Source: Acinetobacter sp. MB5 (GTDB lineage: Bacteria > Pseudomonadota > Gammaproteobacteria > Pseudomonadales > Moraxellaceae). Taken from it: 64,000 nt of DNA. Positions 44,223 to 62,255 of the stretch are shown here, piece after piece; the first letter of the stretch is position 1; each line of letters opens with the position of its first letter. A program made the position numbers and the translations under genes. A model generated the notes under the pieces. That model saw only the letters and a list, made by a program, of their open reading frames with translations. It searched no databases and was not told where the DNA came from. The DNA is taken from the NCBI RefSeq assembly GCF_003261585.1, contig NZ_POVU01000006.1:62001-126000 (forward strand), read 5' to 3'.

Positions 44223-44234
44223 TTTGGCACATCG

Positions 44235-44365
44235 CTTCAGGGCGGGGCGCAATTCCCCACCGGCGGTAAGCTCAACTCTTTGAGTAAGCCCGCGAGCCAA
44301 TGACCTGTGTCATTTGCAGATTTGGTGCAAATCCAAAGCCGACGGTATAGTCCGGATGAAAGAAG
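44235..44365 (+). promoter_or_regulatory. FMN riboswitch (RFN element)
   Basis: All RFN landmarks are present: GGGCGGGGCGCAATTCCCCACCGGCGG, AAGCCCGCGAGCC, GATTTGGTGCAAATCCAAAGCCGACGG and TAGTCCGGATGAAAGAAG. P1 closes by CTTC/GAAG. It controls ribB by sensing FMN; no terminator is obvious between aptamer and start codon, so translational control is more likely. Confidence 0.96.
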
Positions 44366-44467
44366 TCGACGTTTCAGAAGATTCATTTTTTCAAACTTTT
44401 GTCACGACCCCATTTTTTCGATCAGTCCTGAAATGTTCCTGTATCTAAATTACGTGAGCGTTTCATT

Positions 44468-45127
44468 ATGTCTATTCTAATTCAACCCGAATTATTCTTT
44501 TCTAGCCTATCCCCTGCTGAACAACGCATTCAACAAGCCTTAGAAGATATCCGCCAAGGCAAACCTGTTTTGGTGATGGATGATTTTGACCGTGAAAATG
44601 AAGCCGATTTGGTGATTGCAGCAGAAACGCTGAATGTCGAAACTATGGCACGGATGATTCGTGATGGCTCAGGCATTGTATGTTTATGCTTAACTGAACA
44701 ATTGGCAGATCATCTAGAACTTCCACCGATGGTGAGCAACAATTCAAGCCATTTTCATACTGCATTTACCGTGACCATCGAAGCGGCTGAAGATGTAACC
44801 ACTGGCGTTTCCGCAAAAGACCGTGTAACGACTATTCGCGCTGCAACCAAAGATGGTGCTGTCGCGAGCGACCTCAATCGCCCTGGGCATGTTTTCCCCT
44901 TACGTGCGCGTGAAGGTGGTGTGTTGACTCGTCGTGGTCATACAGAAGCAACCATTGACTTAGCCCGTTTAGCTGGTTTAAAAGCTGCGGGTGTACTGTG
45001 TGAAGTGACCAACCCAGATGGAACCATGGCATCAGGGATTCAAGTCTTGTCTTATGCACAAACCCATCACCTCACCGTCATTACCATTGAAGAACTGGTT
45101 CAATACCGCTTAGCCAATAACATCTAA
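44468..45127 (+). CDS. ribB: 3,4-dihydroxy-2-butanone-4-phosphate synthase RibB
   Basis: A 219-residue single-domain enzyme converting ribulose 5-phosphate to the four-carbon riboflavin precursor. Active-site features are [35 protein letters not shown] and [11 protein letters not shown]; the protein ends without a RibA domain. The region upstream from 44366 to 44467 is the riboswitch expression platform. The next gene is convergent. Confidence 0.97.
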
Positions 45128-45145: not shown

Positions 45146-45655
45146 TTACAACGATGGTGATGCATCTTTCTCTTGCACCCAATATTTGATGCATTGCTGT
45201 TGCAAGATATGAATCAAACGCGCAATTACCACCAAAAGTACAGCACCTGTGAATACTGGAAAAATCAAAAAACTCCAAGTGTAATGCATAGAGGATGCAC
45301 TCAATAAAATCAACAATGGATTCGCCCCTGCAGGTGGATGCACACATCCCAAAAGTTGCATGAGTACAATCGCCAAAGCAACCGCCAGCGCGATAGTGAT
45401 CATATTAATTGGTAAGTAATGCGCAAAGACCAAACCTATCGCAGCAGACACTATATGTCCCACAATCACATTTTTCGGTTGAGCCAAAGGTGACTGAGCG
45501 GCTGCATACAACAGCACACAGGTCGCACCAAACGGCGCCATAATCCATAATTGATGCGAAAGCTGGGTCAAATACAGTAAAACCATAATACTCAAACTTG
45601 CACCAAACAATGTCTTGATTAAATCAGAAATTGAATACGGAGAGGACTTTAACAT
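45146..45655 (-). CDS. HPP family integral membrane protein
   Basis: A 169-residue protein with four or five hydrophobic helices. The name-giving motif is HPPAGANPLL near residues 100-109, with APFGATCVLLYA and SPLAQPKNVIVGHI before it. The family's function is largely unknown; plant and cyanobacterial relatives have been linked to nitrite transport. AAGGAG precedes the ATG at 45655. It is divergent from a TetR gene across a perfect palindrome and is very likely repressed by that regulator. Confidence 0.88.
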   Translation of the reverse strand: MLKSSPYSISDLIKTLFGASLSIMVLLYLTQLSHQLWIMAPFGATCVLLYAAAQSPLAQPKNVIVGHIVSAAIGLVFAHYLPINMITIALAVALAIVLMQLLGCVHPPAGANPLLILLSASSMHYTWSFLIFPVFTGAVLLVVIARLIHILQQQCIKYWVQEKDASPSL

Positions 45656-45701
45656 CACTCTACTCCTTGAATTGATTTTTGTTGATGTGCGCGCTAAAAT
45701 C

Positions 45702-45727
45702 AAAATAGTACAGATCTGTACTATTTT
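45702..45727. promoter_or_regulatory. 26-bp perfect palindrome, probable TetR operator
   Basis: Half AAAATAGTACAGA (45702-45714) is exactly inverted in TCTGTACTATTTT (45715-45727). It lies 14 bases before the TetR ATG and 46 bases before the HPP ATG, so one repressor dimer pair could block both. Confidence 0.8.
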
Positions 45728-45741
45728 CAAGAGAAAAAAGT

Positions 45742-46293
45742 ATGTCTAAATCCGCAGCCAAAATTCTAAGCACCGCAGAACAGTTATTTAATCAGCATAG
45801 TTTTAATGCGGTCGGTGTCGATTTAATTCGGGATGAATCAGGCTGTTCTAAAACCACGCTCTACACCTATTTTAAGAATAAACAGCAATTGGTGGCTGCT
45901 GTTTTACAAAAACGCGATGCGCAGTTCAGACAAAGTCTGTCCGATTTTGTTGGAGATACTCAGGACTTGGCTGCGCTTGAGCGAATATTTGATTGGCATG
46001 TGCTGTGGTTTCAGCAAGATCATTTCAAAGGCTGTTTATTTGTCCGTGCAGCGGGAGAGTCTTCACAGCAAGACCATGAAATTCTTGATCTTTCTCAACA
46101 GCATAAACGCTGGTTATATGGATTTATTGCACAATACACACACAACTTTAAACAGCCTAAAGCAGTCACCGAATTATGTTACAACTTTTTAGAAGGATTG
46201 ATTAGCCGATTTTTAATCGATGGCTTTCAAGCAGAAATTGCCGAGCAAAATAAGCAACTAATGTTGAACCTGATCAAAAGTTTACAGGCTTAA
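45742..46293 (+). CDS. TetR family transcriptional regulator
   Basis: A 183-residue regulator with the TetR helix-turn-helix (ILSTAEQLFNQHSFNAVGVDLIRDESGCSKTTLYTYFKNKQQL, residues 8-50, discontinuous motif as usual) and a helical ligand domain. It is divergent from the HPP gene and probably autoregulated at the palindrome. Effector unknown. The stop overlaps the convergent DUF1289 gene by four bases. Confidence 0.93.
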   Translation: MSKSAAKILSTAEQLFNQHSFNAVGVDLIRDESGCSKTTLYTYFKNKQQLVAAVLQKRDAQFRQSLSDFVGDTQDLAALERIFDWHVLWFQQDHFKGCLFVRAAGESSQQDHEILDLSQQHKRWLYGFIAQYTHNFKQPKAVTELCYNFLEGLISRFLIDGFQAEIAEQNKQLMLNLIKSLQA

Positions 46294-61550: not shown

Positions 61551-61565
61551 AATTTAAAAACAACA

Positions 61566-62255
61566 TTATTGATCAATAATGTCGGTTCCTTTAGGCGGTG
61601 TAAAGTTAAAGGTCGATGCTGGAATACTGACATTCTTCGCCGCATTCGTGAAGCGGATGGTTGTTGTTTGACCTAAAGAATCATTCAATACCATATAGGC
61701 TGGTGTGCCATTGCCCGCGAAGCTAATACTTAAATTCTGAAATGCGCTGTCTTTTGCTTTAGGTGTCAGTGTGTAATACGTTTTATTATGATCAGGCTGG
61801 GTTACACGGTAAGATTTCATAATCTGACTGGTATTACCAGATAAAAGCAATGCAGGTGTATTGGCAACCTGATCGCTCAAGCTTTGACGAACAGCTTGCT
61901 GTAAATCTGGATCATAAATCCAAACGGTTTTACCTGTTGTCACAATGGTCTGTTTCGATGGAACCGTTGTTTCCCAGAAGAATTTACCTGGACGAGAAAC
62001 TTTCATAACACCACGAAAGGTCTGATTTAGATGCTGAGCAGTCAAACCTTTTTTCTGAACCGTTTTTTTACCACTGCTTTTGGTCGTTTGTTCGAAATTG
62101 GCAGTCATACTATGCAAGCTACTGAGCTGTTTTACCAAGTTCTGAGTTGCCTGTTGTTCTGAAGCTGGTGCTGCGAAAACCGTTGTACTTACTACTGGAG
62201 CTAAAGTGACAGCACCAAGTGCCACAGCACAAAATGTTTTACGAAGCATATTCAT
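61566..62255 (-). CDS. lolA: Periplasmic lipoprotein carrier LolA
   Basis: A 229-residue periplasmic chaperone that carries lipoproteins from LolCDE to LolB. A signal peptide ends at VFA/AP. Mature blocks are LHSMTANFEQTTKSS, FRGVMKVSRPGKFFWET, VWIYDPDLQQAVRQ and the terminal STFNFTPPKGTDIIDQ. AAGGTGA precedes the ATG. A Lys-rich insertion (KKTVQKKG) follows the first strand. Confidence 0.95.
   Translation of the reverse strand: MNMLRKTFCAVALGAVTLAPVVSTTVFAAPASEQQATQNLVKQLSSLHSMTANFEQTTKSSGKKTVQKKGLTAQHLNQTFRGVMKVSRPGKFFWETTVPSKQTIVTTGKTVWIYDPDLQQAVRQSLSDQVANTPALLLSGNTSQIMKSYRVTQPDHNKTYYTLTPKAKDSAFQNLSISFAGNGTPAYMVLNDSLGQTTTIRFTNAAKNVSIPASTFNFTPPKGTDIIDQ

Follow-up and report, generated by a model that had tools for sequence, protein, structure and literature searches.

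The 26-bp perfect palindrome AAAATAGTACAGATCTGTACTATTTT, at positions 45702-45727 of the 64-kb stretch of Acinetobacter DNA analysed here (the window), is with a probability of about 0.87 the single operator of the adjacent TetR-type gene. One bound repressor would shut both tetR and the divergent gene for a short HPP membrane protein, and a compound would release it. Docking of the neighbouring TetR repressor at the palindrome is very probable, since every close relative of this repressor examined has the same core beside its gene. TetR binding, HPP repression and induction are what we infer from the comparison of sequences.

The 18-bp core TAGTACAGATCTGTACTA would be occupied by one TetR dimer or by two. 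Bound there, the protein would cover the transcript start of tetR on one strand, while on the opposite strand it would fill the spacer between the -35 and -10 elements of a probable HPP promoter. Since the core overlaps both the predicted tetR start and this spacer, one bound repressor would be expected to shut both genes. A small molecule or a reactive compound would then release TetR, leading to synthesis of the short HPP protein and of more repressor. The elements of the locus are the following.

45146 to 45655, minus strand: short HPP membrane protein, 169 aa, TM_HPP (PF04982), ATG at 45655
45672 to 45700, plus strand: tetR promoter TTGATT-17-TAAAAT, from a promoter scan and conservation in 76 loci
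45702 to 45727, no strand: 26-bp perfect palindrome, predicted TetR operator, with the conserved core at 45706-45723
45702 to 45730, minus strand: probable HPP promoter, TTGAAA (45730-45725)-17-TATTTT (45707-45702), bracketing the operator core
45748 to 45720, minus strand: second HPP-strand promoter candidate, TAGACA-17-AATAGT, from the promoter scan
45742 to 46293, plus strand: TetR/AcrR-type repressor, 183 aa, TetR_N (PF00440)

The palindrome and its setting

The two arms of the palindrome, 45702-45714 and 45715-45727, are 13 nt each and 100% complementary, with a spacer of 0, exactly as the original prediction had described them. The same prediction held a chance origin to be very unlikely, and the statistics agree. 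No spacerless palindrome in the window is longer, the runners-up measuring 20, 18 and 16 bp; base composition leads one to expect 0.0014 palindromes of 26 bp per 64 kb and 0.08 per 3.67 Mb, the size of the genome; and the longest arm in 100 first-order Markov sequences of window length was 11. The placement between divergent genes is likewise confirmed, with HPP on the minus strand and TetR, starting at the ATG at 45742, on the plus strand. The second-longest spacerless palindrome of the window, the 20-bp ACATTATTGATCAATAATGT, is located at 61563-61582.

Both flanking genes are clear members of their families, at 156.5 bits against a cut-off of 27.2 for TM_HPP and 50.6 bits against a cut-off of 24 for TetR_N. 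The start that the mechanical list of open reading frames assigns to HPP is a TTG at 45730, which lies upstream of the palindrome. The ATG at 45655 is preferred because of its ribosome site, AAGGAG at 45668-45663, seven bases before the start codon as judged by eye. On the other side of HPP, an FMN riboswitch (44230-44371) precedes ribB (44468-45127), which runs convergently into HPP; ribB lies within the fetched stretch in 25/78 loci, many stretches being too short to tell.

Conservation and specificity of the site in Acinetobacter

A sample of 149 Acinetobacter genomes was searched for orthologues of the TetR protein at a threshold of E<1e-45. Such an orthologue is present in 76 of them, and the E-values then jump from 8.7e-48 to 2.9e-27, where weaker TetR matches begin. 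A divergent short HPP gene adjoins the orthologue in all 76 genomes (in G092 the HPP is in pieces), and a site related to the core lies upstream of tetR in all 76 loci, which do not amount to 76 independent events because many of the genomes are closely related. The case that had been named against the original prediction, a site absent from orthologous loci, was looked for and did not occur. The core is exact in 59/76 loci and has at most two mismatches in 72/76, the remainder consisting of three loci with three mismatches (G001, G020 and G148) and one with four (G070). All 18 Acinetobacter loci taken from named records also carry the site at two mismatches or fewer, although these overlap with the 149 genomes and do not form an independent set. 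The site persists although the identity of the TetR protein falls to 43% among the 76 orthologues.

The extent of the conserved unit is smaller than originally proposed. The 26-bp unit is exact in the window, but across orthologous loci it is the 18-bp core that is conserved: the palindromic length is at least 26 bp in 22/76 loci, at least 18 bp in 60/76 and at least 16 bp in 66/76. Columns and pairs were counted over 74 of the 76 sites, G070 and G130 being dropped because the 40-base window is short there. Dyad positions 3 to 7 (GTACA/TGTAC) are invariant in these 74 sites; outside this count, G130 retains them and G070 breaks position 7. Changes matched in both arms occur in two loci, TGGTACAGATCTGTACCA in G092 and TAGTACAAATTTGTACTT, at dyad position 2, in G020. 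Over the 76 loci, the codon that aligns with TetR residue 1 follows the centre of the site by 13-79 bp, the distances being approximate in G014, G020, G026, G099 and G148, where this codon is not ATG. Two genomes, G103 and G130, have two sites each, 48 bp apart, and in G113 the whole locus is present twice. At L015, the locus of G092, a genome closely related to the window species, the HPP gene is split in two and the match to TetR ends early; the operator there is still a perfect palindrome with its matched changes, and the same site is found in L074.

This pattern of variation bears on whether the palindrome could act as RNA or as a structure, namely as a terminator working in both directions or as a leader-transcript hairpin. 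The RNA fold of the stretch, at -10 kcal/mol with a z of -3.0 and only 3/200 shuffles as good, would suit such a role, but it is expected of any perfect palindrome, and neither a terminator-like site nor an Rfam match up to E 1 was found at the locus. The outer A/T arms vary between loci and drift, whereas the GTACA/TGTAC core hardly changes, which is the pattern of protein contacts and not that of a stem. An RNA function is therefore extremely unlikely.

A binding site for the neighbouring repressor is also what the distribution of the sequence points to, for the site is strictly tied to the TetR gene. When the 149 genomes were scanned with the 18-mer at up to two mismatches, 73 genomes gave a match, all of them among the 76 with a TetR orthologue; the 73 genomes devoid of the orthologue yielded no match at this stringency. 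Off the locus, a single two-mismatch site was found in the 149 genomes (in G020), against 10 matches for a reversed control pattern. In the genome of the window itself, no second site within two mismatches was found, and there are 7 places with three mismatches against 15 for the reversed control. The comparison (76/76 loci against 0/73 genomes, and a single copy) supports the one-operator circuit with HPP as partner that had been proposed. The suggestion that further copies of the site would reveal a regulon found no counterpart, either in this genome or, apart from the one off-locus match, in the 149 genomes.

Relatives outside the genus and the predicted reach of the repressor

The order was sampled twice, with 115 and 293 genomes. 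Nine genomes of other families carry a short HPP gene divergent from a related TetR gene (loci L134, L155, L156, L157, L211, L215, L216, L220 and L222; L158 and L216 are one locus). All nine loci contain two operators resembling GTAGACnnnnnnGTCTAC, several of them degenerate, as read by eye. In each of the nine, the 18 bases that follow a TTGACA on the HPP strand are taken up by one of the operators, which reaches with its last three bases into a TACnnT and thus overlaps an HPP promoter of the form TTGACA-18-TACnnT. A tenth TetR-HPP pair, in G154 (L223), is not among the nine counted for operators. The search of the order for TetR gave 46 of the 293 genomes, and HPP is present in 6 of the 29 newly fetched loci. 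In one of these six, L207, the TetR and HPP frames overlap and no operator is readable. Within the stretches fetched for L194 and L195, whose TetR proteins score highest among the relatives outside the genus, there is no HPP.

On the scale of the class, an HPP relative was detected in 105 of 369 genomes, and 30 loci were fetched. A related TetR gene occurs in three of these: the locus of the window, L167, where a gene lies between, and L173, where it is on the same strand as HPP. No such TetR is near 27 of the 29 other loci, and in the remaining two it is not an immediate divergent neighbour. The TetR-HPP pair is rare outside the order. Inspection by eye of fifteen HPP loci that lack a divergent related TetR revealed no regulator recurring consistently beside HPP, and the Acinetobacter operator was not matched there within three mismatches; the closest approach, at four mismatches, is in L166. 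In L167 (G282), the related TetR gene is about 0.9 kb from the short HPP gene, with another coding sequence between, and an operator-like GTATACAGACCTGTCTGTAT precedes it. The HPP relative of L138 (G220), from another genus of the same family, is placed by the tree inside the HPP clade of Acinetobacter. The fetched stretch of L138 contains neither a related TetR gene nor an operator, a pattern that suggests transfer, or loss of the regulator.

In a tree, the TetR proteins of the outside relatives stand apart from those of Acinetobacter, and the label of being adjacent to HPP changes four times, each change being forced by well-supported branches; the number is approximate, given the long branches of L207 and G098 and the HPP neighbours that contig ends may conceal. 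All TetR-paired HPP proteins are placed in a single clade, supported at 96/92, whose members are mostly shorter HPP proteins; this tree was built from a gammaproteobacterial set that contains no plant or cyanobacterial protein. The HPP of the Acinetobacter genome G098, which is outside the 76 with its TetR only 37% identical, branches beside the genus clade (82/91), but the TetR of this genome is elsewhere on a long branch, and the intergenic gap holds a different 20-bp palindrome, AGTATACCGATCGGTATACT. Operator and TetR lineage differ at the same place; thus the HPP gene has kept a divergent TetR despite these changes.

The recognition helix varies in a corresponding manner. Of the 75 distinct TetR sequences from Acinetobacter, 74 have the helix GCSKTT(L/M)Y and one has GSSKTTMY, and residue 38 is T in 75/75. 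At this position, L134, L155-L158 and G098 have K, whereas L167, L127 and L128 have M. As judged from these alignments, the change of residue 38 goes with a change of the operator wherever an operator was read. These observations weigh against the idea that some other DNA-binding protein, or a regulator of more global scope, recognizes the palindrome and that TetR lies beside it by coincidence. Long palindromes do serve many regulators, but here there is as a rule one copy per genome, none occurs within two mismatches where TetR is missing, and the operator changes with the lineage and the recognition helix of the neighbouring TetR. We can give such a regulator hardly any credence.

The remaining question is whether the predicted repressor would reach both promoters. 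That of tetR is conserved. A single base separates its TAAAAT from the palindrome; over the 76 loci the best-scoring -35 element is TTG(C/A/T)TT in 61 and the -10 element TAAAAT in 56, and a score of at least 8 of 12 is attained in 65/76 loci as against 136/1520 shuffled upstream stretches. Judged by the spacing of this promoter, transcription of tetR should begin within the operator. The -35/-10 pair that ranks highest around the operator on the HPP strand reaches 6 to 9 of 12 in the 76 loci, and its place varies. Of the two promoters, that of HPP is the less secure, because the pair is not uniform in the genus and the scan had no shuffled control. Of the original proposal that both promoters share the site, the tetR side stands, with a promoter conserved directly upstream, whereas on the HPP side no uniformly recognizable promoter exists in the genus.

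This asymmetry would be explained if the palindrome were the operator of tetR alone, serving autoregulation, with the HPP promoter beyond the reach of the repressor. The distances fit as well: the centre of the site lies 19-50 bp before tetR in 72/76 loci but 74-100 bp before the HPP start in 69/76. However, a purely autoregulatory site does not account for the divergent short HPP found beside all 76 TetR orthologues, nor for the locus of G052, where only an HPP fragment is left and both the orthologous TetR and the site are missing. It is also at odds with the relatives outside the genus, in 9/9 of which the HPP strand has an operator that fills the space from TTGACA to TACnnT and extends into the latter with its last bases. 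Autoregulation of tetR alone is for these reasons quite improbable, and control of both genes from the one operator is the preferred reading.

The two proteins and comparison with known systems

The model of the TetR protein (pLDDT 93.4) has nine helices, about the number in the all-helical TetR fold with its C-terminal ligand-binding part. Compared with solved structures, it matches TetR-type regulators best, with 3g7r at Z 20.3 (178 residues, rmsd 2.1), 8z6d at Z 19.2 (175 residues, rmsd 2.7) and NemR at Z 17.3 (179 residues, rmsd 2.6) among the matches listed. Among the NCBIfam models, 17 match the protein, all below their cut-offs, the best being DicD at 40.3 of 240 bits, and no NemR model is among them. 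The closest TetR found in named records is that of A. brisouii, with 97% identity, in a search from which records of the own genome may have been left out. A cysteine, Cys98, is invariant in 44 aligned TetR proteins (alignment A1, 44 of 45 picked, the shortened TetR of G092 being left out). Its GC motif is present in all 12 proteins of a further TetR alignment, paralogues included, and may be structural; Cys98 as a sensing cysteine is only a lead, because the motif also occurs in these other TetR proteins. G098 is included in alignments A1 and A2, and the TetR of G050, which has an in-frame TAG, was aligned up to that stop.

The short HPP protein is modelled with six helices at a pLDDT of 83; for the family, one report gives four transmembrane segments (PMC7438415). 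The HPPAGANP motif is invariant in 39/39 aligned HPP proteins (39 of 50 picked, without the fragmented HPP of G092). A relative of solved structure was not found by sequence search, and nothing is claimed from the fold comparison because its best match is weak (Z 5.7). The genome of the window encodes a second, longer HPP (L147, G000:C44:4309-4770), an open frame of 379 aa without a related TetR beside it; among the matches listed, similar long frames are found in many of the 149 genomes.

No named substrate for bacterial short HPP proteins was found in the open-access PMC literature. In an anammox bacterium, nitrite limitation is reported to raise two HPP genes (PMC7438415). A link with nitrite assimilation in Acinetobacter was considered and rejected: nirB above cut-off is missing in 12/76 genomes with the TetR-HPP pair and in 13/73 without it (Fisher p 0.83), so that the presence of nirB is not associated with the pair across the 149 genomes.

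It could be imagined that the short HPP proteins constitute a distinct clade of transporters or channels that are harmful unless tightly silenced, and that at least two separate TetR lineages, each with its own operator sequence, have been recruited beside them at the same divergent position. In Acinetobacter, the invariant Cys98 would sense a reactive electrophile or an oxidant, HPP would move this compound or its product, and the whole would act as a stress valve with one operator. As a complete scheme this is speculative and doubtful. A dedicated repressor with one operator offers a direct handle, for the ligand that releases it should point to what HPP handles, and one experiment would annotate many genomes, because operator and repressor are kept together in 76/149.

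As a type of circuit, this is a well-known, ordinary TetR repressor system. As far as the open-access literature shows, three things are new: that a short HPP is the partner, the sequence of the operator, and the presence of different TetR lineages at the same place. Searches of the open-access PMC literature found no paper related to the operator core (as a 16-mer or a 14-mer), no account of the HPP family with TetR in Acinetobacter, and no mention of PDB entries 8Z6D, 8Z6E and 9LLQ. In PMC3739934, operator terms led to a reference and nothing else.

On the side of the membrane protein, the nearest characterized systems are the HPP nitrite transporters of cyanobacteria and chloroplasts, such as AtNITR2;1. 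They belong to the same family by name, and the window protein has the TM_HPP domain and the HPPAGANP motif. For AtNITR2;1, a chloroplast protein, nitrite transport is reported in a review (PMC4137279). The TetR-paired proteins fall into a clade of shorter members within the gammaproteobacterial HPP set, and across the genus the pair is not associated with assimilatory nitrite reductase.

Among repressors of solved structure, the "TetR1" of 8z6d (E 1.4e-21 by sequence, 28% identity in the structural alignment) is a closer relative of the window protein than E. coli NemR (PDB 4yze), which ranks fifth in the PDB at E 8.3e-7 and, with 20% structural identity, is distant. The GTAGAC-type operators of the relatives outside the genus resemble the NemR box; the Acinetobacter operator core, GTACAGATCTGTAC, differs. 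Cys98 aligns with the cysteine of the NemR segment "isgCltv", which from the chain numbering would be Cys106. According to a review, Cys106 is the NemR residue that responds to reactive chlorine (PMC7464077).

The overall architecture, with its divergent pair, a palindromic operator among the promoters, a TetR_N domain and a TetR fold, is that of the TetR/tetA type. Classical circuits of this family are local, divergent repressors with one target. The locus described here departs from them in that its target would be a short HPP membrane protein, and it has one operator in Acinetobacter as compared with two in the relatives outside the genus.
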